A DNA stretch of 64,000 nt from Acholoe squamosa (Eukaryota; Annelida; Polychaeta; Phyllodocida; Polynoidae): the NCBI GenBank assembly GCA_949317995.1, contig OX439052.1, forward strand, positions 40,426,432 through 40,490,431, in the 5' to 3' direction. The stretch's first letter is position 1, and each line of letters starts with the position of its first letter. The notes beneath the pieces were generated by a model. The model did not search any database. It worked only from the letters and a program-made list of their open reading frames with translations, and was not told the DNA's origin. Made by a program: the position numbers and the translations under genes. Positions 5,909 to 63,850 of this stretch are shown here, in pieces.

Positions 5909-6109
5909 AACCTGAGATAATCCCTTTTTGACCTGCCTTACACATTGACATTGTCTTATGGTATAAACCTGGTCCCCGCACTCTTAATGACAATCTGACA
6001 CTATCCTCGTTATGAGTCATTTGAAAGTAAATGCACAGTCAGTGTGAAATAGATCCCCTATTTTAATTTTTTCATGGAGTTAGTCTTGCTACAATCAATG
6101 GAATTCTGG

Positions 6110-6780: not shown

Positions 6781-6806
6781 ACAAGGCATTTGGGTGGTGA
6801 CACCTT

Positions 6807-9240
6807 AAAGGAAAAGCTGATTTTAATACATATGCCACTCAGGGGGGCATTTTTGAGCCCTTTTCACATTTCTTTCAACAATAAGTGTTGGTTGTTTGTG
6901 CTGGACACCTCTTATATATGGGATTTGTGTCCAAAAATGATAGAATTTCATGGAGTTTTGCCTTAAAAATGCCTAATTTTCACAAAAATTAGACCTTGAA
7001 ACTAACTCCCTTTTTTCTAGTCCTTACAGGCATTTTATAGGAAAATTTCACTTCCGAACTAATTCTGATGAAATGGGTAATTTTTTTAACTCACCTATCA
7101 TTTAAAGGATCGAATATCATGACACTATATAATGGAACATTCCAGGGGTAAAATATATTCCAGAATTGCATTGATTGTTTTGGTTACCATGGCAACATAA
7201 CATGTTTCCTCTCCAAGGGGCCTATTTTGGCCCGAAAAATGCCTGTTTTAGGACCTTTTCACCAATTCTACTGACTTCCCTAATTCTCACAGTGCTTAGT
7301 GGCATATTACTGGAGAAAATGGATGTTCTGGGCTGTCTTCTAATGCATATTTGCCATAACAAAGTCAGGCTAGATTTTTCACTATGTCAGATTAAAAACT
7401 TGTAGCTAGAAAAACAACCTTTTTAGGGCAGTTTTGGTCTACGCACATCCCTCCACTGTCCCAAATGGCCCAAAATACCAACAAAATATGGTTTTTAGGT
7501 AGAATCTGGGGACAAATTATGATTGAGGGTCCTCAAAATGTTTTGTTTATAAAGGAATCTTTTGGTAACCATGGCAATAACAAAACCAGCTTTTCTGTTA
7601 AAGGAAAAGCTGATTTTAATACATATGCCACTCAGGGGGGCATTTTTGAGCCCTTTTCACATTTCTTTTAACAATAAGTGTTGGTTGTTTGTGCTGGACA
7701 CCTCGTACCGGGTATATATGGGATTTGTGTCAAAAAAATGATAGAATTTCATGGAGTGTTACCTTAAAAATGCCTAATTTTCACAAAAATGAGACCTTGA
7801 AACTAACTCCCTTTTTTTCTAGTCCTTACAGGCATTTTATAGGAAAATTTCACTTCCGAACTAATTCTGATGAAATGGGTAATTTTTTTTAATTCACCTA
7901 TCATTTAAAGGAGCGAATGTCATGACACTATAAAACGGAACATTCCAGGGGTAAAATATCCCAGAATTCCATTGATTGTTAAAGTTACCATGGCAACATA
8001 ACAACATGTTTTCTCTCCAAGGGGCCTATTTTGGGTCAAATTTGGCTATTGTGGCCCGAAAAATGCCCGTTTTAGGACCTTTTCACCAATTCTACTGACT
8101 TCACTAATTCTCACAGTGCTTAGTGGCATATTACTGGAGAAAATGGATGTTCTGGGCTGTCTTCTAATGCATATTTGCCATAACAAAGTCAGGCTAGATT
8201 TTTCTCTATGTCAGATTAAAAACTTGTAGCTAGAAAAACAACCTTTTTAGGGCAGTTTTGGTCTACGCACATCCCTCAACTGTCCCAAATGGCCCAAAAT
8301 ACCAACAAAATATGGTTTTTAGGTAGAATCTGGGGACAAATTATGATTGAGGGTCCTCAAAATGTTTTGTTTATAAAGGAATCTTTTGGTAACCATGGCA
8401 ACAACAAAACCAGCTTTTCTGTTAAAGGAAAAGCTGATTTTAATACATATGCCACTCAGGGGGGCATTTTTGAGCCCTTTTCACATTTCTTTTAACAATA
8501 AGTGTTGGTTGTTTGTGCTGGACACCTCGTATATATGGGATTTGTGTCAAAAAATGATAGAATTTCATGGAGTTTTACCTTAAAAATGCCTAATTTTCAC
8601 AAAAATGAGACCTTGAAACTAACTCCCTTTTTTTCTAGTCCTTACAGGCATTTTATAGGAAAATTTCACTTCCGAACTAATTCTGAGGAAATGGGTAATT
8701 TTTTTTAATTCACCTATCATTTAAAGGAGCGAATGTCATGACACTATATAACGGAACATTCCAGGGGTAAAATATCCCAGAATTCCATTGATTGTTAAAG
8801 TTACCATGGCAACATAACAACATGTTTTCTCTCCAAGGGGCCTATTTTGGGTCAAATTTGGCTATTGTGGCCCGAAAAATGCCTGTTTTATGACCTTTTC
8901 ACCAATTCTACCGACTTCACTAATTCTCACAGTGCTTAGTGGCATATTACTGGAGAAAATGGATGTTCTGGGCTATCTTCTAATGCATATTTGCCATAAC
9001 AAAGTCAGGCTAGATTTTTCTCTATGTCAGATTAAAAACTTGTAGCTAGAAAAACAACCTTTTTAGGGCAGTTTTGGTCTACGCACATCCCTCCACTGTC
9101 CCAAATGGCCCAAAATACCAACAAAATATGGTTTTTAGGTAGAATCTGGGGACAAATTATGATTGAGGGTCCTCAAAATGTTTTGTTTATAAAGGAATCT
9201 TTTGGTAACCATGGCAACAACAAAACCAGCTTTTCTGTTA
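6807..9240 (+). repeat. Three tandem units of about 800-824 bp
   Basis: Units start at AAAGGAAAAGCTGATTTTAA at 6807, 7600 and 8424. Copies two and three are nearly identical; the first is slightly shorter and more diverged. Each unit holds several GTTACCATGGCAAC-like palindromes. The small frames recur with the 824-bp period and hence are not genes. Origin unknown; no transposase or RT similarity seen. Confidence 0.85.
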
Positions 9241-9242
9241 AG

Positions 9243-9683
9243 CTGTCACCACCCTAAATTGGACCACTTTCGGGTTTACTGGCCAAATAGTCCCTTCTGA
9301 ACTTAGTTAGGGAATTTGGCCCCAAGGGAAGGGAAAGAGGGGCCGAACCCATTGTTATTTGGTATATGAGTAGATGAGTTTCAATAGTCCCAGAATATTT
9401 TTTGTTCAAAACATAAATTCAGTGGAAGTTTATGTGGTGAAGGGGTCCTTATGTGTATTCATGCGTTGATCAGGCCTCACCATGCAAAAATCACTACCTG
9501 GTTACCATGGCAATTTGCGCAAAATCTAGCCTGACTACCGTATGTTTATGTGGACCTATCTTATTTTTTTTCTCCATTTCATAAGCTAAAATATGGTGTT
9601 TGTTGCTAAGCACTGTGAGAATTTTAAGTATATTTAATATCAGGTCAAAGGTGGAAGACCTGTGATTTTTTGGATGGCCACAG
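9243..9683 (+). repeat. Right direct repeat of the 6-9.7 kb complex
   Basis: Same-strand copy of 6340-6780 with minor substitutions and small indels. It ends at the same TTTTTTGGATGGCCACA boundary as the left copy. Confidence 0.8.
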
Positions 9684-9699
9684 GGATGCCAGCGTCTCA

Positions 9700-16034: not shown

Positions 16035-17671
16035 ACTCTGGTGCCCTGAGGTATAGACCCTCAGGGAACCTGAGTTATAGGGAATTAAAAGGGGCGACAA
16101 TTTGGTCGCTATTGTTTGAGGATTTACAATAGTAATCCTGGAAATAATACAAAGACGCGGGGTTCCTCCTGTTAAGTGTTTGCGGGAATATCCCAGTAGA
16201 ATGCATAAATGTTTGTTATAAAATATATTTTATAAAGAAAGAGAACTTCTGGATGCGATATGTCACCGGGAACAGGTAAAGAATGTCGCTATAAGTCCTT
16301 AGACCCGATGAAGCCTAGAGTGGGAGCGGCATGTTATGGTCCTATAGGATGCTGGGGGTGGTTGTGAAGGCTGAGTCAGTGTGTTGGACTTTGTCCATGC
16401 AGGTCTTGGGGGTCCTGATGGTGGCAGTGGAGATTATGTCCTTATGAGTGGATGGGTGTGTCCTCTATAGAATCTGTTAGAATCTCAACAGGCTTAAAGT
16501 CCAAAAGGTGTAGGGTGACAAAAGACCAAAACCACCGGTAGTCTGGGGGTATATTAGGATGGAACTGAGAAATCAGGGCGCGAATTGTGCTCGGAACTTC
16601 AGGGATCCACAGTTCGACCTGGAATTAGAGGGGAAGATATTTATATTCGGCAGCCCACAAGTATGAATCGATTGAAATTCTGAATAGTATTTACAGGAGC
16701 TTTGGTCACTGTCTAGGGTGCTTCCTGTAGTTTTAACTTCATTCAATTGGAGGCCTAGGCATACAATAAGAGGATCTAATTATTATATAGAGGAACCACA
16801 CATCAAGGACTTAGCTTTGATTAGCTTTTCCCTTGGTCTCTCACTACCCATTATTATATTCTCAATGCTCACTTAACATCTCACCATGGAGGGATTGATT
16901 TAACTTGGAATTATGCCATGATGGAATTTGAAGACACCAACAGATTGTAATTGTGCCATCTGATAACAACTTGTGGTTATGTTATAAAATTCGGCGACAT
17001 TTTGTAAACCTGTGCTTTTGAAATATGTGATGGTGATGGAACTTATAAATGTTTTGGAGAACCGTTTATGGTTATGAAATTTATAAATGTTTTATGATTG
17101 TGTGGATTTAAAGATATTTGATGACGATGGAAATTACTCATGCCTGCGATTGGATACATGATGTTATTGATGAAATGTGGTGGCATTATTATTTGTGATT
17201 TAGATATGTTGGCACGATTGACTTTGCAAAATGGCTGGATCTAGTTCATTGGAATCTTCCTGGTTAAAGGTATGTGATTATGATTACCAAATTGAAATGT
17301 GAAATCAACACTGGAGTCTGAATTGTACTAGACCTTTGAATTGGCATATATACATATTCAATAAAACCCCTGGAGATTAATTACCCAATTGTGTTTTCTT
17401 TCCAAATGGGCTGTGGGATTTAAAAACAGTTCTATTACTTGACGCTAGCTTGAAAACATTCCCCAAATAGACAGTTTAAACAGCGAGTGGAGATTGGAGT
17501 GAGGTAAAGCATAACTGGTGTAAACCCGAGTTGGATTGTATTATAGCTTTCCTTTTAGAGAACCCAAAACCCAACTTTAGAACATCAAACCCCTCATTCC
17601 CCTCCGCCTGTGATAGCCCAAACCACCCTACAGGAAGTAGTATAGGAAGCAGGAAAGCATAGTGGTACATG
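16035..17671. other. Non-coding stretch, no gene seen
   Basis: Nothing supported: no long frame, no RNA gene and no repeat with clear ends. Confidence 0.4.
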
Positions 17672-17906
17672 TACCGTAATCTCCTGCGTAGAAGACGCGC
17701 TGCGCGTATAAGACGCACCCCAAACTCAGCACATGCATTTTCGCGTATAAGACACACATTTTAAGGCTGAAATTTGTAAGATTAGTACATTTCTATAGTA
17801 AAATTACCCCTCGTATAAGACACACCCCCAACTTGAGAGAAAGCTATAAGACGCCCCAGCATTTTGTTTGCCCTAGAGGACGCGTCTTATACGCGGGAGT
17901 TTACTA
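17672..17906 (+). mobile_element. MITE family A, copy 1
   Basis: Starts TACCGTAATCTCCTGCGTAG and ends in the inverted form CGCGGGAGTTTACTATA, slightly decayed at the right. The inside repeats TATAAGACGCACCCC-like motifs in both orientations. Family A has seven clear copies in this window, all about 235-245 bp, which is the strongest evidence that it is a mobile unit. Confidence 0.8.
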
Positions 17907-21410: not shown

Positions 21411-21879
21411 TACCGTAAAACCTCGTGTATAGGACGCACATTGCATATAGGACGTACCCTGAGTTTTAGGAAACACTATAAGACATCAGGGGTCACATTT
21501 TGGTTATTTCAGGGATGTCCTATACCGTAATCTCCCGCGTATAAGGCGCAGCCCGCGTATAAGGCGCACCCCCAACTAAGGGAGGCCTGTCCCACATATA
21601 AGACACACCCCTAAGAGCAGATTTTTGTTAATGTAGTACTGTTCTATAGTAAAAATACCCCCCTATAAGGCGCACCCCAAACTGAAGGCAATTTTCCTCC
21701 CAAGTATAAGACCCAGCAGCCTTTTGTTTGGCGTATAAGACACGCCTTATACGCGGGAGATTACGGTAGTAGAAAATCCTCGCTTATAGGACGCACCCCC
21801 AACTCCTAACAATCATATAGGACGCACCTGGGGTTATTTTAGTGCATAAGACACGTCCTATACACGAGGATTTACGGTA
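21411..21879. mobile_element. Outer MITE of a nested pair
   Basis: TACCGTAAAACCTCGTGTAT at the left is mirrored by ATACACGAGGATTTACGGTA at the right. A complete family A MITE (21523-21768) is inserted inside it, so the outer element was there first. The outer family shares the TACCGTAA start and the TATAGGACGCACCC motif with family A but has CTCGTGTATAGG instead of CCGCGTATAAG. Confidence 0.75.
21523..21768 (+). mobile_element. MITE family A, copy 2 (nested)
   Basis: Near-perfect TIRs TACCGTAATCTCCCGCGTAT and ATACGCGGGAGATTACGGTA. It lies inside a related, older MITE at 21411-21879. Confidence 0.85.
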
Positions 21880-23470: not shown

Positions 23471-23705
23471 TACCGTAATCTCCCGTGTAGAAGACGCGTT
23501 GCGCGTATAGGACGCACCCCAAACTCAGCAGGAGCATTTTCACATATAAGACACATTTTAATGCTGATATTTGTAAATTCAATACATTTCTATAGTAAAA
23601 TTACCCCTCGTATAAGACGCACCCCCAATTTCAGTACATCCTATAAGACGCACAAGGCATTTGTTTGGCGTAGAGGACGCGTCTTATACGTGGGAGTTTA
23701 CGGTA
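23471..23705 (+). mobile_element. MITE family A, copy 3
   Basis: Starts TACCGTAATCTCCCGTGTAG and ends GTGGGAGTTTACGGTA. The interior has TATAGGACGCACCCCAAACT and TATAAGACGCACCCCCAAT, as in the other copies. Confidence 0.85.
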
Positions 23706-24233: not shown

Positions 24234-24858
24234 TTTGCCATGGGAATCCCCCTTAGTGAACCACGTCTGAGTTATCAAAGGCCATGGTTTGTCTGGCCCT
24301 GCCTATGGGACCAGGCAAATATAAGAACACATGCTATCCTTCGAAAAGAGTAGGGGAATGAAGCCCCGGTAGTGGTTTCCCCCTCACCCCTCCTCATAGA
24401 ATTGGTCATTCATCTCATAGATTCTGTCATTTATAGATACGGTCAAGGCTGTTTCGGGCAAGCAGCATATAAATACCTGTCTAGATGTCTGGACAAGCAG
24501 CTTTGAAATACCTGTCCAAACAGAAACAACAGGGCTTAATGTCTGCAAACCACAGAAATGTCTGCTCACTTTTAAGTACTATTAGTGGACGTAAAATCAA
24601 ACCAAACCAATACATCTCACCGGACATCTCAGTATCATGTCATAATCATGCATGGTACTCATGTGTCAAACTTCAAGGGACCGATCATGCGTGTGAAGCA
24701 GGGGCGGGTCGAGGCTATCGAAAACGAGGGGCATGGTCCAAAAGCAGGGTGTCTGGGAGAACAACAGCCCCCAAAGCCCAATGAAAAAAAAAACTCACAT
24801 TGAATCACTGAAGCACCTCAGTGCTGGGTGCATCATGCCGACTGCCACAACCGCATAC

Positions 24859-25095
24859 TACCGTAATCTCCCGCGTATAAGACGCGTCCTCTACGTCAAA
24901 CAAAATGCTGGTGCGTCTTATAGGATTTTCTGAGGTTGGGGGTGCGTCTTATATGAGGGGTAATTTTACTAGAGAACAGTACTGGATTTACAAAATTGAG
25001 CCCTAAGAGGTGCGTCTTATACGTGAAAATGCCTCTGCTGAGTTTGGGGTGCGTCCTATACGCGCAGTGCGTCTTCTACATGGGAGAATACGGTA
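24859..25095 (-). mobile_element. MITE family A, copy 4 (reverse orientation)
   Basis: Starts TACCGTAATCTCCCGCGTAT followed by AAGACGCGTCCTCTACG, the end that lies on the right in most other copies. The right end reads TACATGGGAGAATACGGTA. The frames inside are by-products of the repeat. Confidence 0.85.
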
Positions 25096-28400: not shown

Positions 28401-28521
28401 ATATTTAGGGACGATGGTTGGGAACCATCCACATCAGACACTGGTGTCTGGTGTGGATGGTTCCCAACCATCAGACACTGGTGTCTGGTGTGGATGGTTC
28501 CCAACCATCGTCCCTAAATAT
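28401..28521. mobile_element. 121-bp near-perfect foldback palindrome
   Basis: The left arm starts ATATTTAGGGACGATGGTTG and the right arm ends CAACCATCGTCCCTAAATAT. Arms are about 41 bp and nearly perfect, and the centre repeats CAGACACTGGTGTCTG. The whole segment is a foldback miniature element. Overlapping frames on the plus strand come from the internal duplication. Confidence 0.7.
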
Positions 28522-29722: not shown

Positions 29723-29957
29723 AAACACACTTGGCATGATGCTCCAGTGAATTTGGTTTAGAATTTTCCACTTCTAACAGTACTGTTCTATAGTGTCAAA
29801 GCTCCGCCTGTAAGACAAATGTAGGGGCCAGCTCTGCCATACAAAGCCAGCTGCCCCGTTCCGGGTGTACCAGCCTAGCCCCCTGACACCTGGTGGTAGC
29901 TGCCCCTATGTGTGTCATACCGATCCAGGTGTAGATGGAAGGCAGAGAATGTCAGAC

Positions 29958-30029
29958 AGGGAAGTAGCTCAGCGGTAGAGCTTCCGCCTGCATGTTGGAG
30001 GGTCCGGGGTTCGACTCCCGGTTTCTCCA
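29958..30029 (+). tRNA. tRNA-like sequence in TRIM 1 left LTR (GCA at anticodon position)
   Basis: A 72-nt cloverleaf-like sequence has an A box TAGCTCAGCGG, a D stem GCTC/GAGC, a B box GGTTCGACTCC and an acceptor 3' strand TTTCTCC plus A. The anticodon loop CTGCATG places GCA at positions 34-36, but the anticodon stem pairs poorly (TCCGC/TTGGA). That argues for an internal pol III promoter and primer-like 3' end rather than a decoding tRNA. Confidence 0.65.
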
Positions 30030-30033
30030 GGAC

Positions 30034-30207
30034 CAGGGATGTAAGTCTTCAGGTTTTATCAGGATTTCCTGATTTCTGAAAATTTAGAATGACATGTATT
30101 TTCCTTATACAAGTGGTAAGGAGGGCTGTTTGAGGAAAATAGGAGGCTTTTATACATAGTAAGTGTATCGCTTCCTGATTTTTGCCCATGCCTGACTTAC
30201 ATCCCTG
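30034..30207. mobile_element. 174-bp MITE inside TRIM 1 LTR, 6-bp TSD
   Basis: Perfect TIRs CAGGGATGTAAGTC and GACTTACATCCCTG are flanked by the direct repeat CAGGAC (30028-30033 and 30208-30213). The other LTR shows the empty site. The CAGGG start is hAT-like, but the clean duplication is 6 bp, not 8. Confidence 0.85.
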
Positions 30208-30235
30208 CAGGACATTTTCCGCCAACCCTCTACAC

Positions 30236-30251
30236 TGGTGGAGAAACCGAG
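30236..30251 (+). promoter_or_regulatory. TRIM 1 primer-binding site
   Basis: TGGTGGAGAAACCGAG begins two bases after the LTR end. It is complementary to a tRNA 3' end reading CGGTTTCTCCA plus CCA, which is the 3' end of the tRNA-like sequence encoded in the element's own LTRs. Confidence 0.8.
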
Positions 30252-30429
30252 TGGTCCTGACCCGTGTGAGGGGGGACTACGAGAACTCGGTACCTGGGCC
30301 GGTATGACACAAATGCGATTCAATCTGCTAAGTACTGGGGGACTGGAAACAGGTGGCACCCTGAAGGTGACTCAGTACTAGTCCTGGTTGTCTGGTTCCG
30401 AGCCCTAGGTTGAATCTGGTAGGGAGGAG

Positions 30430-30663
30430 TGTAGGGGGCCAGCTCTGCCATACAAAGCCAGCTGCCCCGTTCCGGGTGTATCAGCCTAGCCACCTGGCAC
30501 CTGGTGGTAGCTGCCCCTATGTGTGTCATACCGATCCAGGTGTAGATGGAAGGCAGAGAATCTCAGACGGGGAAGTAGCTCAGCGGTAGAGCTTCCGGCT
30601 GCAGGTTGGAGGGTCCCGGGTTCAACTCCCAGTTTCTCCAGACATTTTCTGCCGACCTCTACA
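30430..30663 (+). repeat. TRIM 1 right LTR
   Basis: 234-bp repeat beginning TGTAGGGGGCCAGCTCTGCC and ending ACCTCTACA, preceded by the purine tract. Confidence 0.85.
30569..30640 (+). tRNA. tRNA-like sequence in TRIM 1 right LTR
   Basis: Acceptor strands GGGGAAG and TTTCTCC pair with G-U pairs. A box TAGCTCAGCGG and B box-like GGTTCAACTCC are intact. The loop CTGCAGG again puts GCA in the anticodon position. It is the homologue of 29958-30029. Confidence 0.65.
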
Positions 30664-31264
30664 CATACTCTGAAATCAAGAATATTCATGATCAATCCAT
30701 AAACCGCAATATTGCGTCTCATTACCATGGTATGCAAGCCTCGGCTGATATGTGAGGTTTTATGGTACAGCCCTAATAAACCAATCACATAAACAGACCC
30801 GGGTATACAGACCATACTCCTGCCCATTGATAGTTAACTCGAAAAGCAAGTTATAAGGAGACACCCTAGGGCACTGCACTTTCAGTCATTTTGGTGATGC
30901 GAATAAGTTTAAAAAAAGATGGAAATTTTATATATAAGAGGCAGAATTACTTTATGAATTTGTAGTGCCATTAAAGGAGGAGATGTAGGGGTCTTGCAGG
31001 AAAAGGTATTTCATTACCAAGTTATGTAAATTTTGAGAAATTGTCAATAATGTACAGACTCAGTTGGTTGGCAGCCATAAGACCCTTTTTGCCTCCAATG
31101 GTGAAGGTATATGATGTTGATCCATGTATCAACTTTCCAGTCTTTTTTAGCAATGTGGTGCGAATAGCACAGTTTTGGCGGGAGTTATATGAATAGTGGC
31201 TTGGTGGTGCTAATAACCTGGGTGAGGGAGTGCTGATGCAACAGGATGAGTGCACAACTCATGG
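30664..31264. other. Non-coding spacer between TRIM elements
   Basis: No gene or named repeat seen. Confidence 0.4.
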
Positions 31265-31430
31265 GGGGCCATCCACAAATGACGTCATGCTGAAGGGGGG
31301 GGAGGAAGGTCAGGCCGGCATGACGAAATAAATTTTCCATATACCTTCAGCATTTCAAAATTGGCAAAGACATGACGAGGAGGGGTCTAAAAAGGTGAAA
31401 TTTTGCCTGATATCATTTATGGATGACCCC
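31265..31430. mobile_element. MITE with GGGGYCATCCAYAAATGA ends
   Basis: GGGGCCATCCACAAATGACG at the left mirrors the right end, which reads ATCATTTATGGATGACCCC. The trinucleotide TGG flanks both sides (31262-31264 and 31431-31433), consistent with a 3-bp target duplication. The element is 166 bp and non-coding. Confidence 0.7.
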
Positions 31431-31522
31431 TGGGAGCCAATCACAGGCTTTTCACTTTTCGAGTTATCAGCAATTTACATTGCTGCATTATATTTGTACA
31501 CATGCTAACAGGACACTGTGTA

Positions 31523-31698
31523 TTAACCATTTATGGGATGCTTAATGCAGGAGTGCATCATGCCCATTGGTGCATCACATCTTTCCTCTGGGAGTGTATC
31601 ATCATGATGCATGAATGTATAGCCTTCGCCAGGGCTACATTCATGCATCATGATGACCGATGGATGCATTAATGCTCTGCCAGCCTTCAAACAGTTAA
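31523..31698. mobile_element. TTAA-type miniature element
   Basis: Starts TTAACCATTTATGGGATGC and ends CCTTCAAACAGTTAA, with TTAA on both sides. GCATCATGCCCATTGG and CATGATGCATGAATG cores are arranged in both orientations, as in the other copies of this dispersed family. Confidence 0.5.
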
Positions 31699-31799
31699 GC
31701 TTCCCTGACTAAAGGATCTATACCGTACCGTCGTGTTCAAGCGCCCTGGCGGTCTTTGATTTGGCGGCCTCAATTCGCCCGGCACTCACACAAGACAGG

Positions 31800-32048
31800 T
31801 GTAGGGGTTCGTTCCCTCCCCGGGTGCGTTGAGCCTTCAGAGGCCAGCTCACTTGGGGGTCACTCCCCCTATGTATACCATACCGATCCAGAGGTAGGTG
31901 GAAGGTGGAAATGTCAGTGGGGCCGTGTTGGTGACAGGGTATGTCAGGCCAGGGGAAATAGCTCAGAGGAAGAGCTTCCGCTTCGAAGTTGGAGGGTCCC
32001 GGGTTCGAGTCCCGGTTTCTCCAAGAGACGTTTTTGCCGACCTCTACA
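31800..32048 (+). repeat. TRIM 2 left LTR
   Basis: 249 bp, TG..CA ends, one mismatch to the right LTR (GTTTTTGCC against GTTTTCGCC). Confidence 0.9.
31952..32023 (+). tRNA. tRNA-like sequence in TRIM 2 left LTR (CGA at anticodon position)
   Basis: GGGGAAA pairs with TTTCTCC, with one G-U. The D arm is GCTC/GAGC, the A box TAGCTCAGAGG and the B box GGTTCGAGTCC. The T arm CCGGG/CCCGG is perfect. The loop TTCGAAG would give CGA, a serine anticodon, yet there is no long variable arm and the anticodon stem is weak, so it is not a normal serine tRNA. Confidence 0.7.
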
Positions 32049-32049
32049 C

Positions 32050-32065
32050 TGGTGGAGAAACCGAG
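32050..32065 (+). promoter_or_regulatory. TRIM 2 primer-binding site
   Basis: TGGTGGAGAAACCGAG, identical to the PBS of TRIM 1. Its first 14 bases are the exact complement of the LTR-encoded tRNA-like 3' end (CGGTTTCTCCA) plus CCA. Confidence 0.85.
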
Positions 32066-32291
32066 TGGTCCTGCCCTGTAAGGGGGTCTAAGATACTCGG
32101 GACCTGGGCCGGTATGGTATAGACAAGCGCTTCAACCTGCTAGTGCTGGGAGACTTGGAAACAGGTGGTACATACAGTAAGTCCTGGGAACAGGACAGGC
32201 TGTAACTGTGTGTGGCTCAGTGCTGGTACCGTTCAGACCTGAACTGGAGGATCGGGTCTGGCGGGATACGGTTGAAGCTGGTTGGGACGAG

Positions 32292-32540
32292 TGTAGGGGT
32301 TCGTTCCCTCCCCGGGTGCGTTGAGCCTTCAGAGGCCAGCTCACTTGGGGGTCACTCCCCCTATGTATACCATACCGATCCAGAGGTAGGTGGAAGGTGG
32401 AAATGTCAGTGGGGCCGTGTTGGTGACAGGGTATGTCAGGCCAGGGGAAATAGCTCAGAGGAAGAGCTTCCGCTTCGAAGTTGGAGGGTCCCGGGTTCGA
32501 GTCCCGGTTTCTCCAAGAGACGTTTTCGCCGACCTCTACA
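32292..32540 (+). repeat. TRIM 2 right LTR
   Basis: 249 bp; matches the left LTR at all but one position. Confidence 0.9.
32444..32515 (+). tRNA. tRNA-like sequence in TRIM 2 right LTR
   Basis: Identical to 31952-32023, at the same LTR offset (492 bp apart). Confidence 0.7.
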
Positions 32541-33084
32541 CAGGCGTTTTTTTAAAGATCCAGTTTTAATGCTTAAGTAATATTTCAGCACCCCATTACC
32601 CCAGGCACTTATTGCCGTTCATTCTTAGGAATGAACGGCTATAGGAGGGGACCCATTCTTAAATACAAGCTCTCATAGTGGTGCTTCCTCGCTCTCCATG
32701 TATAATCCTGTCATAGGTACAGTATTGAGTATGCCTATACCTGGATTAAAATCTGCAAATCAGTCAAGCATAGAAGTGGTGGCAGTGGTGGTGTTGGTGG
32801 ACCTGTTATTGTAGACCCTGGGGACAGAGTGGTGGTAGCCCTGGACAGCTCAGGCAGGGCCATGGTATATAGCATATATAGCCCCCCCCCCACCCACCTC
32901 TGAATAGTGGTGGTGGCTGTGCTCCTGTGGTGGCCCCATACCTGCCTGGCACCACCTCACCCAGCACCATGTGGTTCTCTTCTGCTGTTGATGCATTTCT
33001 CAGCACCACTGACTATTAACCCACTAAAGGCCACCTACATGTATATTTATGTATACATGTACACATAAGTATGATGCACTTTTT

Positions 33085-40137: not shown

Positions 40138-40375
40138 TACCGTAATCTCCGGCGTAGAAGACGTGCTGCGCGTATAAGACGCACCCCAAACTCAGCACAT
40201 GCATTTTCGCGTATAAGACGCACATTTTAATGTGTAAATTTGTAAGATTAGTACATTTCTATAGAAAAATTACCCCTCGTATAAGACGCCCCCCCCACCT
40301 TGAAAAAATCCTATAAGACTCCCCAGCATTTCGTTTGGCGTAGAGGATGCGTCTTATACGCGGGAGTTTACGGTA
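40138..40375 (+). mobile_element. MITE family A, copy 5
   Basis: Starts TACCGTAATCTCCGGCGTAG and ends ACGCGGGAGTTTACGGTA. It is the left end of duplication unit 1. Confidence 0.85.
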
Positions 40376-40976
40376 GTTGTCAAACCTAGCGAGTAAGTCA
40401 CTAGGGCTGTGTTCATGCTTCAAGTCGACTGGTTGATACACACTGCAACACTACATGATGCCTCACCAATCGGTGTGATGCACTCCTGCATAAACAGCAC
40501 TTAAAGGGTACATGTTAAAGTTCTAAGACATCTGACACTATTGAGGGTGTTTGCAGCCATCACTCATTCAGAAAGCCCGCCCTGTCGTGCCTGACAATTT
40601 GTTACCCTTCCACTCACTAACTCCAAATACACCTCCAAAAGCACAACCATGTTAACCCCTGGGATTTAAAATCCTGCTAACACTTAAAAAATGTTTTATA
40701 GCCTAAATATGAAATGCTCATTTGCCATCATGATGCACCGATGCAGTGCTGGCATCATTGCTGCATCTCATTGCTGGGCCTGCATGGCCAGTAACTCGCC
40801 AAGGCTGCAGTCGTGGAGCACTTCATTGGTGCATCAAGCCAACCAAGAATCATTATTTGCTCATGCATTCATAGTGCCCTTAATGGGTTTAAGAGTTCAA
40901 AGGTGTCAGCCTGCGCAGTAAAAGATAAGGCAGAGAGAAGCTTCACAAAATTTTTACCTTAACCCTTTAAAGACTG

Positions 40977-41584
40977 TATCATAACATCACTTTAGGAGCA
41001 CGAAGTGGAGACCTTCCTCCCACAGCCAGAGCTACCTTGTTATTGTGGCAACCGTGGCCGTATCCAACCGCCGTAGTTGTGTCTCATGGCAACGATTGTC
41101 AAAGTTTACTCCGTTGCTAAGTCACACAGGAAATTGATTGTGTTCATCACTTCCAGGTCATGGGTCATAGTGAATGACCTGTGACCTTTCCTAATCTTTG
41201 ATTGGGAAATCCCCTGACTTTGCCATGGGGTGTGACACCAAGGTTTCGATCTTTGGATCTCATCAGGCTCTTAAATGGCGAACAAGGCTTGTGACTATTG
41301 TCACAATTTAATTCCTAAAATAGATTGATTCTAGAAATTACTAATTTTCAAATAAATGTTATTTCATGGAAAATTAGAAAATAGAGACAATCGGTGTCAT
41401 CATGAAATCCTTGTTTCACATTGACAACGAGGGTCCCGATGGGAATTAAATTAGGAGTGTATCCAAAATCTAAATTTCCACCATGCCCATCCTCTCAGTA
41501 AACATGTGTTTTTATGACGAAGTGGGGGATTGGAAGGGCGCTATTTGGGATCTTGGGATTTAGAATTATCATATCATAACATCA
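40977..41584. repeat. 595-bp presence/absence segment between 13-bp direct repeats
   Basis: TATCATAACATCA occurs at 40977-40989 and at 41572-41584. In unit 2 only one copy remains (as TATCAAAACATCA near 43022), with nothing in between. Either the segment inserted with a long target duplication or it was lost from unit 2 by recombination between the 13-mers. Confidence 0.8.
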
Positions 41585-41838
41585 GGGTCATTTGTTTGCA
41601 GGCTTTGCACCTTTGCAACATTGGCAAGACTTGATCTCACCAGTGGCAAATCGATAGAAAGTATTAATGGTCTATGTGAAGTTTAACGAGTTACCCATGC
41701 AGTCAAGATTCTGCTGGGAGACTGAGGGGAAATGAATCTGGTTGGAGAGGGAAAAGGGTCTGAAGCCAGTTTTGTAATAGTCTTAGAGGCTAAAACCATG
41801 CTAAAACTAACATCAAAGCATCTGCTTGAAGATGGAGT

Positions 41839-41932
41839 CACGTGATGACAGCCTCCCCTGTGCTGATTTGGGGAATCACAAGTCATGTGACACTGACACC
41901 TGGTGTCTCAAGATGGCGGATCTAATTTCCGG
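41839..41932 (+). promoter_or_regulatory. Candidate TATA-less promoter cluster, copy in unit 1
   Basis: A CACGTG E-box (41839-41844), a YY1-like AAGATGGCGG (41910-41919) and an ETS-like TTTCCGG (41926-41932, CCGGAAA on the other strand) lie within 95 bp. In known animal promoters this trio is typical of housekeeping start sites, and the YY1 orientation would suggest transcription to the right. No coding exon can be assigned, so this remains a motif-based guess. Confidence 0.3.
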
Positions 41933-42180
41933 TTGGTCCTTTTGAGAGGAAGTAATAGACGTGAAGGACGTAATGGGGGTGTATCGTGGTTGGAGCGTTA
42001 CTGTAGATACACTTAGAAAATACTACAAGGGCTGATACACATTGAAGAAAAAGTTAGGCTGTAAAGAATGCAAAACCTGTAGCTAGGTGCATTGCAGATC
42101 TATTTCCTGGTAATCTCCCATAGCTCAAGGCACACATTTCTGCACCACTGTTAAGGTGGCTGGCGGGGATAGACTAGAAG

Positions 42181-42419
42181 TACCGTAATCTCCCACGTAG
42201 AAGACGCGCTGCGCGTATAAGACGCACCCCAAACTTAGCACATGCATTTTTTGCGTATAAGTCGCACATTTTAAGGCTGAAATTTGTAAGATTAGTACAT
42301 TTCTATAGTAAAATTACCCCTCGTATAAGACGCCCCCCCCAACTTGAAAAAATTCTATAAGACTCCCCAGCATTTCGTTTGGCGTAGAGGACGCGTCTTA
42401 TACGCGGGAGTTTGCGGTA
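42181..42419 (+). mobile_element. MITE family A, copy 6
   Basis: Starts TACCGTAATCTCCCACGTAG and ends ACGCGGGAGTTTGCGGTA. It is the left end of duplication unit 2 and directly abuts unit 1. Confidence 0.85.
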
Positions 42420-43296
42420 GTTGTCAAACCTAGCGAGTAAGTCACTAGGGCTGTGTTCATGCTTCAAGTCGACTGGTTGATACACACTGCAACACTACAT
42501 GATGCCTCACCAATCGGTGTGATGCACTCCTGCATAAACAGCACTTAAAGGGTACTTGTTAAAGTTCTAAGACATCTGACACTATTGAGGGTGTTTGCAG
42601 CCATCACTCATTCAGAAAGCCCGCCCTGTCGTGCCTGACAACTTGTTACCCTTCCACTCACTAACTCCAAATACACCTCCAAAAGCACAACCATGTTAAC
42701 CCCTGGGATTTAAAATCCTGCTAACACTTAAAAAATGTGTTATAGCCTAAATATGAAATGCTCATTTGCCATCATGATGCACCGATGCAGTGCTGGCATA
42801 ATTGCTGCATCTCATTGCTGGGACTGCATGGCGAGTAACTCGCCAAGGCTGCAGTCGTGGAGCACTTCATTGGTGCATCAAGCCAACCAAGAATCATTAT
42901 TCGCTCATGCATTCATAGTGCCCTTAATGGGTTTAAGAGTTCAAAGGTGTCAGCCTGCGCAGTAAAAGATAAGGCAGAGAGAAGCTTCACAAAATTTTCA
43001 CCTTAACCCTTTAAAGACTGTATCAAAACATCAGGGTCATTTGTTTGCAGGGTTTGCACCTTTGCAACATTAGCAAGACTTGATCTCACCAGTGGCAAAT
43101 CGATAGAAAGTATTAATGGTCTATGTGAAGTTTAACGAGTTACCCATGCAGTCAAGATTCTGCTGGGAGACTGAGGGGAAATGAATCTGGTTGGAGAGGG
43201 AAAAGGGTGCATTTTGTCTGAAGCCAGTTTTGTAATAGTCTTAGAGGCTAAAACCATGCTAAAACTAACATCAGCGCATCTGCTTGAAGATGGAGT

Positions 43297-43387
43297 CACG
43301 TGATGACAGCCTCCCCTGTGCTGATTTGGGGAATCACAAGTCACGTGACACCTGGTGTCTCAGGATGGCGGATCTAATTTCCGGTTG
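43297..43387 (+). promoter_or_regulatory. Candidate promoter cluster, copy in unit 2
   Basis: Duplicate of 41839-41932. It has two CACGTG boxes (43297-43302 and 43342-43347), since ATGTG has become ACGTG. The YY1-like site is altered to AGGATGGCGG, and the ETS-like TTTCCGG is kept. Confidence 0.25.
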
Positions 43388-43779
43388 GTCCTTTTGAGAG
43401 GAAGTACATGTAATAGACGTGAAGGACGTAATGGGGGTGTATCGTGGTTGGAGCATTACTGTAGATACACTTAGAAAATACTACAAGGGCTGATACACAT
43501 TGAAGAAAAAGTTAGGCTGTAAAGAATGCAAAACCTGTAGCTAGGTGCATTGCAGATCTATTTCCTGGTAATCTCCCATAGCTCAAGGCACACATTTCTG
43601 CACCACTGTTAAGGTGGCTGGCGGGGATAGACTAGAAGTAATTAGATTTTCGCCATATTCTCACCAGATCCCCAAAATGTCATGTACTCTGTGGATTTGC
43701 AATAAAAATGTGGGGGTCCCAGGCATATTTCTGAACTACAGAACCTTCAAGCTTACATAGGATTATTGGTATAGAACCA

Positions 43780-45303: not shown

Positions 45304-45540
45304 TACCGTAATCTCCCGCGTATAAGACGCGTCCTCTACGCCAAACAAAATGCTGGGGAGTCTTATAGGATGTACTGAAATTGGGTATGTGTCTTATACG
45401 AGGGGTAATTTTACTATAGAAATGTACTGAATTTACAAAATTGAGCCTTAAAATGTGCTTCTTATACGCGAAAATGCATTTTCTAAGTTTGTGGTGCGTC
45501 TTATACGCGCAGCGCGTCTTCTACGCGGGACATTACGGTA
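45304..45540 (-). mobile_element. MITE family A, copy 7 (reverse orientation)
   Basis: Starts TACCGTAATCTCCCGCGTAT and ends CTACGCGGGACATTACGGTA. Orientation as in the copy at 24859-25095. Confidence 0.85.
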
Positions 45541-48933: not shown

Positions 48934-49203
48934 TCATACATTTTGATACCGTGCTCTAGTCTAGGACACAGACCATGTCTCGTAAGCAGGGTATGTTTAT
49001 TATAGAACAGTATAACTTAAGTGCCCAACAGCCCATGCAGTTCTACCTTACAGCCTTTTCTTCAACTCAAGGTGTGCCTGGTAAGAGAGGGATATTTTGG
49101 AGTATTTGGTGGAACACCCAGGAATCTGGAATTGTACACCTTAGTTACACAACTCCCTAAAACCCTTCGTATAAGCCGCAGCTTCTACACCATTTAAGGC
49201 TGT

Positions 49204-50553
49204 TGTCATACTAGTAATTGGCATGATCAAGTTGTCATATGAGAAATATCATATGACTAGTGGTGTATGGAGTAAATATATATCAGGCTCATGTAAAATA
49301 GTGTTATTTCCAGTTGTCACTGGTTTATTCAGCTTTAGGCAACATGTAAGAAATATCAATCATACAGTAGTTAGTATGTAGGTAATTTGCACATACAGTA
49401 AACATACAGTAATTTATAAAGTATAATGTTCAGTTCCACTCCACCTGTGAGGTATTAATAATACAGTGTCCAGCATAGTTCTAGGTGGGTTCCCACACCT
49501 AGCTCCTGACCTGCTGCTTAGAGGAATAATGTAATAATGAGTAACTTTACCCTCTGGTGGAAGTCTTGAAGAAGATAGCCTCTGGCCACTAATGGTAGGA
49601 AACCAATGCCTGTCTAGCATAGTTTCACCATAGTGCAGTGGTATAGCAGGTAGCAGGAGATGACTGGAGATGTTACCTCTAGAGCGGTTCTTGGTGATGT
49701 GTCTTCCTGGAGGTGCAGACAGGCTATTTGTAGCAAATCTTGGAAAAGCACCTCCAGACTGACTGGAGCCAGCAGCATCTGCCTAACTCTACAATTGTTT
49801 GAGGGGACTCTTTCAAGTGTCACAGGGGGACAAAGGACCCCCATGGACGCCGCTATGCCCCCCATTGTCTTGGTCGGTTCTGCATCTTCAGACCCTCATA
49901 ACTCGGTCGTTTATGCTTGTATAACCGCCATTTTGGGCATGCGCGGAGCTGAATGTGCCAAGATTATCATGCCCGCTGGATAGGCGCGTAACTCCCGCCG
50001 GTTTGTCTGTAGCTCACTCGGAGGTCGATTCAGTCTCCATGGCGTAACTTCCTTAATACTGGGAGTTCCGCCTTGATCTTGGGCTCATTCTGACCGTCTA
50101 ATTATGGGCTTTCCATAGATATTTTGATATTTGACCTAGGTCGCTCAGGAGCGACGCTAGAGCGACCGGAAGGTTATGGCGTCGTGTTTATGTAACCCAT
50201 TGTTCAGTTATTAGAGTGCTCAGACACTCATGACGGCGTCAGCGGTGCTCAGGCACCCGTGACGGCCGGTTGCATTCACTTACAAGTTATTAATTTGTGC
50301 ATTGAACCATGAGGTCGCACACTGAGACCCTTATTCTTATTATATTGTGCAGTGAACCATTAGGTCGGAGCCTTTGATGTCAGAGAGAGTGTTTGTAACT
50401 GACCTGGCTGGTGTGCAGTGGGGCATGAACGCTCTTATACAAAGTTTGAGCGCTCTTATAGCTCTTAGAACCAACCTATGTATTAATTTCATAGATATCC
50501 TTTGATTAATACAAAATATGTTACAATTTATGGAATAATAAAATGGTATATCA
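49204..50553 (-). repeat. 3' LTR (inner end inferred)
   Basis: The outer end begins TGTCATACTAGTAATTGGCA on the plus strand and equals the 5' LTR at 63854. The inner end is placed at the CA at 50552-50553 because a purine tract (minus strand) follows within a few bases. If correct, the LTR is about 1350 bp. A polyadenylation signal for the element (TTTATT at 49324-49329, AATAAA in sense) lies near its 3' end. The frames within 49414-49983 are not supported as genes. Confidence 0.65.
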
Positions 50554-50560
50554 TAGAATA

Positions 50561-50573
50561 CTCCCTCTCCCCC
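50561..50573 (-). promoter_or_regulatory. Candidate polypurine tract
   Basis: The plus strand reads CTCCCTCTCCCCC, so the element strand has a 13-base purine run GGGGGAGAGGGAG about 7 bases before the proposed LTR start. It is the longest such run between the env region and the 3' LTR. Confidence 0.55.
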
Positions 50574-50884
50574 GAAAGAATGCGAAACTCCGTCATTTCG
50601 CCGAGGGAATGTACAATTTATACAATTTTTACCTTATTTTGGAGTTATATACTGTTTTGTAAGAGGATTTGAAGTGATGGGGAGTGCTTCAAATGCAATT
50701 TTTGTGGTAGAGCTTTGTCAGTATAAACAATTTTCTCCTGGGTATAAGTACATTTCCGAGTTTCTATATCTTACCATACCTGAGCTTATTTGCTCATGTG
50801 ACATCAATTTTGGGTACAATTTCCCATTTTTATGTACAACATACAATTTGGCAAATAGTGTGCAATTTTGGCATTCAATGTTCA

Positions 50885-51330
50885 ATTTAGCGTGCAAATT
50901 GAACATAAATGACAATTTTAGTGTGCAAATTTACAATTTCGCGTGTAATTGCGTTCAATTGACAATTTCAGTATGCAAATATATAATTTTTGCGTACATT
51001 TGGCAATTTGAGTGTGCAAATATATAATTTTCGCGTATATTTAGCAATTTTAGTGTGCAAATATATAATTTCGCGTACATTTGGCAATTTTAGTGTGCAC
51101 ATATATAATTTTGCGTGCATTTGGCAATTTTTAGTATTCAAATCTATAATTTCGCGTGTATTTGGCAATTTTAGTATGCAGATATATAATTTCGCGTGTA
51201 TTTGGCAATTTTTGGTGTACAAATATATAATTTTTGCGTACATTTCACAGTTTTAGTATGCCAATATATAATTTTGCGTTCAATTGATAGTTTCTGTATG
51301 TACATATATAATTTTGCGTACAGCTTGGAT
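50885..51330. repeat. ~43-bp minisatellite in the retroelement
   Basis: Units contain GTGCAAATATATAATTT and GCGTACATTTGGCAATTTTA, with changes in almost every copy; about ten copies. Matching frames on both strands are period artefacts. Confidence 0.8.
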
Positions 51331-51419
51331 ACACATAGAAATGTTGATTTTCTAAAAATCTGACTTCAGTGTATGAATTGGGTACAGACATACAGTATAA
51401 TGTGCAACATATAATTCAA

Positions 51420-51712
51420 ATGTAAATTGGATACAACTTACAATCTAGTGTGCAAACATGCAATCTTTGTGTGCAAAATTGGGTACAAGTGTACAATCTG
51501 GTGTGCAAACATACAATTTTAGTGTGCAAATTGGGTACAAGCGTACAATCTGGTGTGCAAATATACAATTTTAGTGTGCAAATTGGGTACGAGCGTACAA
51601 TCTGGTGTGCAAACATACAATTTTAGTGTGCAAATTGGGTACAAGCGTACAATCTGGTGTGCAAACATACAATTTTGTGTGCAAATTGGGTACAAACGTA
51701 CAATCTAGATTA
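51420..51712. repeat. ~52-bp minisatellite in the retroelement
   Basis: Five to six units contain GTGCAAATTGGGTACAAGCG and TACAATCTGGTGTGCAAACA, following directly on the previous array. Confidence 0.8.
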
Positions 51713-51918
51713 CACTATTCAATTTATGGGATTTGAGACAAATTATTCCGAGGGCCGGAAAAACAAAGTACTTCATGTACAATAGGCTTGTTTGTCTCTG
51801 AGTTACTCATTGATTTTGCTATATGGGTGTATTAGTTGGCAATTTCGGCAGTGGGCCGCTGCTTAATTGACTTTTCCCCTAGCCTTTTGAGTATGTGTCC
51901 CTGAAAGAGATTTATTTG

Positions 51919-52288
51919 GTGAGTATCTTAAGTAAACATGTTTTATGTCAACAATTTTCTCAACAATTTTTTTTTTTTTTTCATTCATTTTTTCCAACAA
52001 TTTTCTTGGATACCTAAAGTGTGTTACTTTAAGTAAACCTTGGCATAGTATACAAGTGCTAGTGGGTACAAAAACTGTCTTAGTTATCTACCTGCATTCA
52101 TGTATATTAATGTTAGATTTGTACAATTTTACAATTTGTAATTTGCAATTTCGCAATTTTGCGCGTACATGCGCGCATTAATCATCGATTTTGTGAGAAT
52201 ACCATAGATTTTCATATTATACATCAACAAGTGGCTGTGTATATAATTTTTTTTTTTTTTTCTAATACTTTGATAATTTCATTGACAG
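51919..52288 (+). other. Predicted 370-bp intron of the antisense gene
   Basis: A strong 5' splice site, TTTG|GTGAGTAT, occurs at 51919. A textbook 3' splice site ends at 52288: a run of T (about 52247-52261), a branch-like CTAAT, and ATTTCATTGACAG. Both lie on the plus strand, opposite to the retroelement, and upstream of the open frame at 52517. Random co-occurrence of so complete a pair at a short distance is possible but not likely. Confidence 0.5.
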
Positions 52289-52516
52289 TGGAGGTGTGTC
52301 AGGAGTGAGATGTGAGTCTCCTCCCTGGTGTGCTCATGCAGTGGTGGCACTTGAGGTGTTAGGTGCCAGATTCTGGCATGTGTCTGTGGCAGTGCCTAGC
52401 TTGGTGTCAGTGGACAGTTCAGGGTGGGGGGGGGGGGGTGTGTGTGTGTCCATTTAAGGAGTGTGTGGCTGGTATTGGAGCATCAGTTCCTCTCTGGAAG
52501 TCACTGCTGTAGTACC

Positions 52517-52990
52517 ATGGCCCACCTACAAGCTCTCTTTGCTCTGCCTGTCACCCAGGTGATGGAGGTGGGGAGTCCAGCTAGGGCCCTGGTTGAGTCT
52601 AACCAGACCATCCATTATGGGTACATAGTGAGTAATTTCAAGGAGATCATTGAGCATGGTGATGTGATGGTCTGTAATTACTCCTGCCATTATTTCCTGG
52701 GCTCAGCCTTGCGTCGGGGGGCCACTGTGGCCCTTCTGACTAGGGCCTTGGGTAATATGGGTTTCTGGCCCATGGATTATAACCTAGGGCCGCGGGAGCT
52801 ATGGGATTATCTGTTGGCGGCATCCCTCCTCGATCTTGCGGCATCCGGGAATCCATCCACGGCTGCCGAGTATGGACTGGGGATGCTGGAGGCCCGGCTC
52901 GCTGAGTGGGAGCAGGATCACGGCCATATGTATGGCTCGGACTCGGCCCCGGACTCTCCCATTGATGTTGAACCTGAGGATCTGTGGTAG
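52517..52990 (+). CDS. Antisense (convergent) ORF inside the retroelement, unknown function
   Basis: 157 codons from an ATG in an excellent context (ACCATGG), tail to tail with the env-side ORFs and not overlapping any of them, so it is not a shadow of a sense gene. The frame stays open another 31 codons upstream, but that part is G-run low complexity and lacks a better ATG. The protein has a balanced composition, a hydrophobic or helical middle (ALLTRALGNMGFWPMDYN, LLAASLLDLAASG), and an acidic C-terminus (DSAPDSPIDVEPEDLW). No family is recognised. A predicted intron lies 5' of it (51919-52288), so transcription could start towards the 3' LTR, as in the antisense genes of some retroviruses. 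It could instead be a captured host exon. Confidence 0.5.
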   Translation: MAHLQALFALPVTQVMEVGSPARALVESNQTIHYGYIVSNFKEIIEHGDVMVCNYSCHYFLGSALRRGATVALLTRALGNMGFWPMDYNLGPRELWDYLLAASLLDLAASGNPSTAAEYGLGMLEARLAEWEQDHGHMYGSDSAPDSPIDVEPEDLW

Positions 52991-53139
52991 GATCCCGACT
53001 GACTGAAACCTAGGGTGTAAGAACCCGCCATCCCAAAGGCCCTTTTCAGGGCCGGCAAATTGTCCGAAAAGTTCTGAATACTGTCTCTGATGTGTTGTCT
53101 CCTGGTGGTGGACTGGGGGCAGCCTAGGCTGTGGGCAGT
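52991..53139. other. Short gap between convergent ORFs
   Basis: 149 bp between the stop of the plus-strand ORF and the stop of the minus-strand ORF. No AATAAA is visible for the plus-strand transcript. Confidence 0.5.
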
Positions 53140-54078
53140 CTAGGCTGTTTCCACAGTCACCGGGGAGGGCTGGTGGTTTAGAAAATTAGCAATAGTCTGC
53201 ATGTTTGACCTTGCGGTCTCCTCCTGTTGTTCGTCAATAATTATATCTGTTGTATTTTCCAGTGCTGTCATGGTCACCGGGCTGGTGCCACAATCATTCT
53301 GGAGAAGCATGGAGTAGTACAGTCCTTTGTTTTTAAGGGCTGGTATAGTACTGAACCTAGTGCGCCAAGGTAGGTGTATCACCTGAGGGAGGTGATAAGC
53401 AAATTCTCCTCTCTGTGTTGTTATAACTGCTGGTCCATTCCAGGTAAATATAGCCTTAGGTAGTGGGAAGGTTTTAACCACTATATCCTTATAGGTAGGG
53501 GCAGCTGCTGATTTAATCTCATCAAATTCATGTGGTATTGGCCTCAAGGGTAGCGCGAAGTTTGAGTCTCCACAATATATTTTAAAATATATTGTGGGGT
53601 TTGTGCGCTTGGCCATATTTTTCTTGCCACAGTGTGTCTGTGCAAATTTCTTAAGGTACTTCATTATTCTGTAGGCTGAGTAGATGGTCAGGGTGAATAA
53701 TATAGCAATTATCAGGGTGTGGGTTTCCTGAATTGTGAGGAAAGGGGTGTGGGTTTCCTCTGTAGGGGTTAGTTTGGTAGGATTCTTATCTGGGAGCAAT
53801 TTGTGTAGGGGCAGCTCGGTGACTAGTCTGAATGCTTTGGCTGTAGGCAGGTAGGCTACAGTTCCTCCTAGTCGGTACAGTTTGAGTAGTATGTATACTA
53901 TAAAAATGTGAGCTGATATCCCTAGGATGAGTGCTAAGCTTTGGAAGATTGGATGCTCTGTAACTCGACGTAGGTATGATTCCTCGTAGCGCGTTTCCAT
54001 TTCCTTATTAAGGTTGGAGGCATCTTTTAATACTGTTTTAGCAAAGAGCTCTAAATTTAGTTGAGTAATATCATCCAT
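53140..54078 (-). CDS. Two-membrane-segment ORF downstream of env (possible Env C-terminal part)
   Basis: 312 residues from an ATG. The first 45 residues are helical and charged, a hydrophobic segment spans about 46-68 (SLALILGISAHIFIVYILLK) and a second about 119-137. The rest (150-312) is soluble-looking, with no recognised domain. The upstream env frame stops at 54123, 44 bases before this ATG, and has no membrane anchor of its own. This ORF is in the -1 frame relative to env and stays open back past the env stop for about 25 codons. It may therefore supply the Env anchor through frameshifting, be a separate membrane protein, or show that the copy is broken at this spot. No classical slippery heptamer is visible in the overlap. 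Confidence 0.7.
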   Translation of the reverse strand: MDDITQLNLELFAKTVLKDASNLNKEMETRYEESYLRRVTEHPIFQSLALILGISAHIFIVYILLKLYRLGGTVAYLPTAKAFRLVTELPLHKLLPDKNPTKLTPTEETHTPFLTIQETHTLIIAILFTLTIYSAYRIMKYLKKFAQTHCGKKNMAKRTNPTIYFKIYCGDSNFALPLRPIPHEFDEIKSAAAPTYKDIVVKTFPLPKAIFTWNGPAVITTQRGEFAYHLPQVIHLPWRTRFSTIPALKNKGLYYSMLLQNDCGTSPVTMTALENTTDIIIDEQQEETARSNMQTIANFLNHQPSPVTVETA

Positions 54079-54122
54079 GGTTGGATTTTCCTGTAGTTTT
54101 TCTAAGGTTCTAGAAAGGTTTA

Positions 54123-63835: not shown

Positions 63836-63850
63836 GGATGTTCTCCACCA
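63836..63850 (-). promoter_or_regulatory. Primer-binding site of the large retroelement
   Basis: In sense, TGGTGGAGAACATCC starts three bases after the LTR end. It is complementary to a tRNA 3' end GGATGTTCTCCA plus CCA. Its first ten bases equal those of the two TRIM PBSs. Confidence 0.75.

Follow-up and report, generated by a model that had tools for sequence, protein, structure and literature searches.

Miniature LTR elements of the annelid Acholoe squamosa may encode the tRNA-like primer that matches their own primer-binding site

A stretch of 64,000 nucleotides from the polychaete Acholoe squamosa (GCA_949317995.1, contig OX439052.1, positions 40,426,432 to 40,490,431; hereafter the window) carries two short long terminal repeat (LTR) elements, E1 (29820-30663) and E2 (31800-32540), with TGTAG...CTACA LTRs. 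Each LTR contains a tRNA-like gene, and the 3′ end of this gene with an added CCA is complementary to the primer-binding site (PBS) of the elements. LTR retrotransposons and retroviruses as a rule borrow a host tRNA as primer. From comparison of the sequences we propose that E1 and E2 are Helenus-type elements in which an alanine-type tRNA encoded by the LTR probably primes reverse transcription, acting either in cis or on other RNAs of the family in trans.

The layout of LTRs and target-site duplications (TSDs) bears out the original prediction, made from the letters of the window, of two neighbouring elements with TG..CA LTRs and a PBS (Table 1). Both have the structure expected of Helenus, with a length below 1000 bp, two LTRs, a PBS, a polypurine tract (PPT) and no proteins, and the 4-bp TSD of animal Helenus elements is present at E2 (perfect) and E1 (three of four positions). 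The purine tract that had also been predicted is there, but it is purine only in part (GGTAGGGAGGAG, GGTTGGGACGAG). The two LTRs of E2 show 1 difference over 249 bp and those of E1 are ~95% identical; E1 is the older element. The single open reading frame (ORF) of at least 120 aa, at 32212-32580 over the 3′ part of E2, gave no homologue in a protein search. The 174-bp insertion in the E1 5′ LTR lies immediately 3′ of the tRNA end and resembles a miniature inverted-repeat transposable element, with 14-nt inverted ends (CAGGGATGTAAGTC / GACTTACATCCCTG).

ARAGORN predicts a 72-nt tRNA in all four window LTRs, as had been claimed, and the four sequences score 36.9-53.5 bits against the Rfam tRNA model RF00005 (cut-off 29). 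The 5S rRNA that characterises Cassandra elements is absent from the window, where Rfam at its gathering threshold finds tRNA only. A and B boxes are present in all four copies, which retain between 18 and 20 of the 21 cloverleaf pairs. The LTR tRNAs have a G-U pair at acceptor position 3 and a discriminator A, which are known alanine identity elements, together with the anticodons GCA and CGA. Runs of four or five T close behind the tRNA are putative terminators for RNA polymerase III (pol III); the only other run of at least four T in E2 belongs to the 3′ LTR copy (32523-32526), where the spacer is again 7 nt, although the count of such runs in E2 is within what composition allows and is not significant as a sign of selection. 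When E1, corrected for decay, is compared with E2, the tRNAs differ at only 1 of 42 paired positions, with pairing kept, and at 7 of 30 unpaired positions (p 0.008). Between the two LTRs of single elements, by contrast, differences are about equally frequent in paired (106/1297) and unpaired (60/922) comparisons, taken over 31 genomic elements of which a few decayed copies could be aligned only roughly. Since subfamilies differ mainly at unpaired sites whilst LTR-LTR differences are even, the fold is kept while the elements replicate, and it is the whole fold that is maintained, with an acceptor stem that does not belong to the promoter, rather than just the A and B boxes.

A gap of 1 base separates the PBS, TGGTGGAGAAACCG, from the 5′ LTR; the site is complementary to CGGTTTCTCCA followed by CCA. 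The match of 14 bases is thus made up of 11 encoded bases and the added CCA, which is not encoded 3′ of the tRNA in the LTRs examined and whose complement, TGG, begins the PBS. The exact match originally described holds for three of the four window LTR copies, the tRNA end of the E1 3′ LTR (CAGTTTCTCCA) matching at 13/14. With up to two mismatches allowed, the window has five PBS-like sites against 0.32 expected from shuffling; two of them are the PBSs of the elements and three are ends of LTR tRNAs.

A search of the genome (1.48 Gb) with E1 gave at least 81 matches. Thirty loci were laid out, and amongst the 19 elements delimited by script (L017 and L019 being near-duplicates) 15 have a perfect 4-bp TSD and 17 a TSD matching at three or more of four positions. 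The LTRs of the E2-like copies L026-L029 are identical at 248-249 of 249 positions, so the family has moved recently. A pattern consisting of the LTR end and the PBS occurs 1,500 times in the genome, and its reversed control 0 times. Elements of a further, Ala type were located via L009; their LTR tRNA resembles tRNA-Ala-UGC (68.8 bits). L009/L073 is itself a chimera, in which Ala-type outer LTRs surround an E1-type interior and LTR (TSD TATC), and a second, shortened interior is joined directly past the 14-nt PBS. This structure is a sign of template switching between subfamilies; the chimera shows that their RNAs come together, a possible reason for some of the mismatched junctions.

The 3′ end of the LTR tRNA and the PBS vary together across subfamilies, a check that the original prediction had proposed. 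LTR tRNAs of the Cys and Ser types, ending CGGTTTCTCCA, are paired with PBS TGGTGGAGAAACCG, and Ala-type LTR tRNAs ending CGGTGTCTCCA with PBS TGGTGGAGACACCG; the 3′ ends of LTR-type tRNAs include CGGTGTCTCCA and CTCCCGGTTTCTCCA, and their T-arms take the forms CGAATCCC, CGAGTCCC and CGACTCCC, the cellular T-arm being CGATACCC. Among the first 100 junctions listed of the 1,500, PBS positions 10-11 read AA in 82, CA in 16, TA in 1 and GA in 1. We examined 37 of these, namely all 18 non-AA junctions and 19 of the 82 with AA, chosen by LTR end and PBS only. The LTR tRNA agrees with the PBS at both variable positions in 33/37 (AA-TT 18/19, CA-TG 14/16, TA-TA 1/1 and GA 0/1, where GA faces TT), and the match to the element's own LTR is 14/14 in 24, 13/14 in 10 and 12/14 in 3. 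A tRNA T-arm lies upstream of the PBS in 36 of the 37. L144 carries, in place of the tRNA part of the LTR, the PBS and the start of the interior in inverted form, and L103 is missing part of the D-arm. For 47 distinct junctions, drawn from the junctions listed and from loci resembling E1 or the Ala type, a set in which strongly decayed PBSs are missed, the own match is 14 in 26, 13 in 12, 12 in 6, 11 in 2 and 9 in 1. Three more junctions came from singleton LTRs; L122 agrees at the variable positions and L115 and L127 disagree. Fisher values for the association are 2e-8 for the 37 junctions and 5e-8 in another comparison, but these are not true probabilities because the copies are related. The covariation and the nearly constant presence of the T-arm speak for the self-primer idea, in which the priming step itself remains a probable reading of the pattern.

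Cellular genes were surveyed for Ala-AGC and Ala-TGC, and three tRNA-Ala sequences (L085-L087) were examined in full. A tRNA-Ala pattern has 192 genomic matches; among the 100 listed, 57 are tRNA-Ala(AGC) genes in one tandem array (C12, ~51.451-51.472 Mb, gene spacing ~290-810 bp), 19 are AGC genes elsewhere, all ending ACCCGGGTTCTCCA, 7 are tRNA-Ala(TGC) genes ending CCCCGGCATCTCCA and 17 are unrelated. A genome pattern search found no gene with the AGC T-arm that ends CGGTGTCTCCA. The Ala-type LTR 3′ end CGAATCCCGGTGTCTCCA has 531 genomic copies, 524 of them with a run of four T 3-8 nt downstream, and all 50 viewed in context are in LTRs (30 loci, some of which are two LTRs of one element, and 20 singletons). 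Thus no fitting primer for the CA class was seen other than the one that the element carries; AA-class elements could draw on a cellular one.

The copied primer end is usually 18 nt long. Eight PBSs extended to that length were found, and all were compared with the tRNA of their own 5′ LTR. Two of them, L077 (GGGAT) and L082 (GGGAC), match it at 18/18, and L035 (GGGAG) at 17/18, with one C-to-T change, whereas the three cellular tRNA-Ala ends reach at most 16/18 on these PBSs. Of the eight footprints, three thus favour the tRNA of the element and one agrees with a cellular tRNA; the others, all GGGTT and one change away from the common interior CCGAGTTGG, look like a point change.

Under the self-primer reading, the LTR tRNA would be a pol III gene with A and B boxes and a T4-T5 terminator 4-7 nt past the tRNA, yielding short tRNA transcripts, whilst read-through to the terminator in the 3′ LTR would give the element RNA. 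Once trimmed at its ends and supplied with CCA, the tRNA could pair with the PBS through its terminal 14-18 nt and prime reverse transcription; conceivably, the element RNA could also prime in cis through its tRNA-like 3′ end. The PBS could be rewritten from the primer end in each round, so that PBS and LTR tRNA would stay in step. The reverse transcriptase would come in trans, probably from a Gypsy-type element. One such element lies in the window, its 5′ LTR cut by the window end, and its PBS (TGGTGGAGAACATCC, from 63850 downward) is complementary over 11 nt to the common tRNA-Ala(AGC). It shares 10 nt with the PBS of E1 and E2, no further similarity being found in the window, and illustrates how an element with this kind of priming looks when its LTR carries no tRNA. 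Judging from the PBS, this element or a relative may mobilise elements of the E1/E2 type. At its env position are two ORFs of 552 and 312 aa with no Pfam match; eight homologues are listed for the 552-aa ORF, and three of them (P0001, P0007, P0008) carry PF12259. In L100, L102, L104, L106 and L107 an interior starting GAGCATCC follows the PBS, and CATCCTA is also found downstream of the window Gypsy PBS, a possible trace of a helper.

A number of observations weigh against a self-encoded primer, and some of them would be at home in an ordinary Helenus, where the primers are cellular tRNA-Ala isodecoders and the LTR tRNA serves only as a pol III promoter captured from the same tRNA family, so that PBS and LTR look alike through ancestry. 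The common cellular tRNA-Ala(AGC) end CGGGTTCTCCA fits the AA-type PBS at 13/14, and three variant genes, which end CGGTTTCTCCA, fit it at 14/14; a cellular tRNA with this 3′ end was one half of what the original prediction had named as evidence against self-priming, the other being LTR copies that never give RNA. For the 28 AA-class junction types the variant cellular tRNA-Ala fits 25, the own and often decayed 5′ LTR only 16. Five of the eight extended PBSs fail their own LTR at nt 17-18 (own match 15-16/18): those with GGGTT at L084, L128, L129 and L130 match it at 16, 15, 15 and 16/18 and the cellular variant at 17, and L083 (GGGTA) at 16/18 compared with 18/18 for the cellular variant. 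The fit of the Gypsy PBS to cellular tRNA-Ala(AGC) means that a normal alanine primer may serve such elements. In addition, 7 of the 531 Ala-type ends lack a T tract, and mismatched junctions occur at L009/L073 (the chimera), L127, L115, L089, L090, L092 and L144. A promoter role is also the view published for the Helenus LTR tRNA (PMC10886601). However, the three cellular tRNA-Ala ends give a 14/14 match with none of the 13 CA-class junction types, whilst 6 of these have such a match with their own LTR, and the matching end is found in LTRs. The variant genes, three in the whole genome, all lie in the C12 array, and L085, the one examined in full, carries a C-U mismatch in its acceptor stem. 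In L077, L035 and L082 the match to the own LTR tRNA continues past nt 14, where the cellular ends differ, and the acceptor and anticodon stems, which lie outside the promoter, are conserved as well. We thus consider priming by cellular isodecoders unlikely.

Covariation would likewise be expected if the 3′ acceptor strand of the 5′ LTR tRNA paired with the PBS of its own RNA over 11 bp, as a switch in cis that blocks tRNA processing of the genomic RNA or hides the PBS. RNAfold places the hairpin in both the minimum free energy and the centroid structure of 31950-32075, and the 11-bp duplex is worth -17.4 kcal/mol (-25.0 kcal/mol for the 14-bp primer duplex). The slightly shorter 31952-32075 folds differently, however, and the region is no better folded than shuffles (z -0.13); neither the TGG facing a CCA that is not encoded nor the PBS extensions ending at 18-19 nt would be explained, and we regard such a switch as quite improbable. 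That two linked changes were simply fixed in one subfamily by hitch-hiking, with no functional link, deserves less credence still. There is a single common covariation at subfamily level (TT-AA to TG-CA) and related copies are not independent, which leaves room for it, but the new base complements its counterpart and stands exactly opposite it, and subtype-specific bases are present in three extended PBSs (~0.002 for three of five distinct types at 1/16 each). Capture of the primer through reverse transcriptase running on into the tRNA was rejected, since the LTR tRNA is in the orientation of the LTR and not inverted relative to it.

Helenus (TRIMp3) elements are miniature elements with a tRNA-derived sequence in their LTRs, known from fungi, animals and one plant, with a 4-bp TSD in animals (Kojima, 2024; PMC10886601). 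As described there, they resemble E1 and E2 in having this sequence in both LTRs, with A and B boxes, a PBS and a PPT, and in the frequent disagreement between anticodon and tRNA body type; the PBS of Helenus is described as similar to that of Gypsy elements. The tRNA in the LTR of a miniature element, one part of the design whose novelty the original prediction left undecided, had therefore already been described, but section 3.6 of the same paper reports that complementarity between LTR tRNA-like sequence and PBS was not found and that the sequence therefore does not contribute to initiation. E1 and E2 are of the Helenus kind and depart from it in the self-matching PBS that the describing paper sought without finding, with 14-18 nt of complementarity co-varying by subfamily and an intact acceptor stem; the lack of such complementarity is a generality reported for Helenus and does not enter its definition. 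Cassandra, a plant terminal-repeat retrotransposon in miniature, also has a pol III gene in its LTR, although this is 5S rRNA and not tRNA; its transcript runs from 5′ LTR to 3′ LTR (PMC10886601), and its PBS is of the methionine type in passages of PMC10853983 that mention no self-match. The self-priming LTR retrotransposons Tf1 and Tj1 of fission yeasts take the primer from their own transcript, with a PBS complementary to the element, the primer being, in the account of PMC4600332, the 5′ end of the element mRNA. In E1 and E2 the PBS complements the 3′ end of the LTR tRNA-like sequence with CCA, and the proposed primer is the product of that gene. An engineered tRNA-like primer reportedly complements a murine leukaemia virus vector with an impaired PBS (Lund 1997, by its title); this too is a non-cellular tRNA-like RNA acting as primer, but in an artificial system. 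No self-matching LTR tRNA and PBS is reported in the titles and abstracts of the literature searched, a search that subscription papers mostly fell outside, and no comparable element came out of pattern scans over viral contigs or an initial scan of genome contigs. Five bacterial or archaeal contigs were discarded as chance hairpins with no tRNA at the site.

Table 1. Coordinates of the elements, their parts and other features of the window
Feature	Position	Strand	Remarks
Element E1, Cys-gca type	29820..30663	+	844 bp, TSD CAAA/CATA (3/4 match)
E1 5′ LTR	29820..30234	+	415 bp, carries insertion 30034-30207
tRNA-like gene, E1 5′ LTR	29958..30029	+	36.9 bits, decayed
E1 PBS TGGTGGAGAAACCG	30236..30249	+	
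E1 polypurine-like tract	30418..30429	+	from sequence
E1 3′ LTR	30430..30663	+	234 bp
tRNA-like gene, E1 3′ LTR	30569..30640	+	49.3 bits
T4, putative pol III terminator	30645..30648	+	4 nt past E1 3′ LTR tRNA
Element E2, Ser-cga type	31800..32540	+	741 bp, TSD CAGG/CAGG perfect
E2 5′ LTR	31800..32048	+	249 bp
tRNA-like gene, E2 5′ LTR	31952..32023	+	53.5 bits
T5, putative pol III terminator	32031..32035	+	7-nt spacer after E2 5′ LTR tRNA
E2 PBS TGGTGGAGAAACCG	32050..32063	+	
E2 polypurine-like tract	32280..32291	+	from sequence
E2 3′ LTR	32292..32540	+	249 bp
tRNA-like gene, E2 3′ LTR	32444..32515	+	53.5 bits
Gypsy-type element	49203-64000	-	gag 61343-63367, pol 56589-61319
Gypsy PBS start TGGTGGAGAAC	63840..63850	-	candidate helper type
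Copies of 230-250-bp repeat	17671-17904, 21523-21768, 23471-23705, 24857-25095, 40138-40378, 42181-42422, 45304-45540		

Elsewhere in the window, an interspersed repeat of 230-250 bp has seven copies in both orientations. A direct duplication at 40138-43640 comprises parts of ~850 bp and ~620 bp (95-97% identical), 6091-9685 is a block of direct and inverted repeats (93-97% identical), and 28407-28515 is a near-perfect 109-nt inverted repeat with sub-cut-off similarity to many miRNA precursor models. An Rfam match to mir-2008 was set aside, since many miRNA models hit the long hairpin at its site with scores short of their cut-offs.

In conclusion, we lean towards the view that this is a natural family encoding its own primer tRNA, in which each subfamily would have a private lock-and-key of tRNA and PBS, rewritten in each round and free of the host tRNA pool. 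Hundreds of tRNA-like sequences in this genome are parts of retrotransposons. If the self-primer reading is true, an element that carries its own primer gene would change how primer use can evolve, there would be a reason for whole tRNA folds to persist in LTRs, and the family would offer a natural system in which the PBS reveals the choice of primer.

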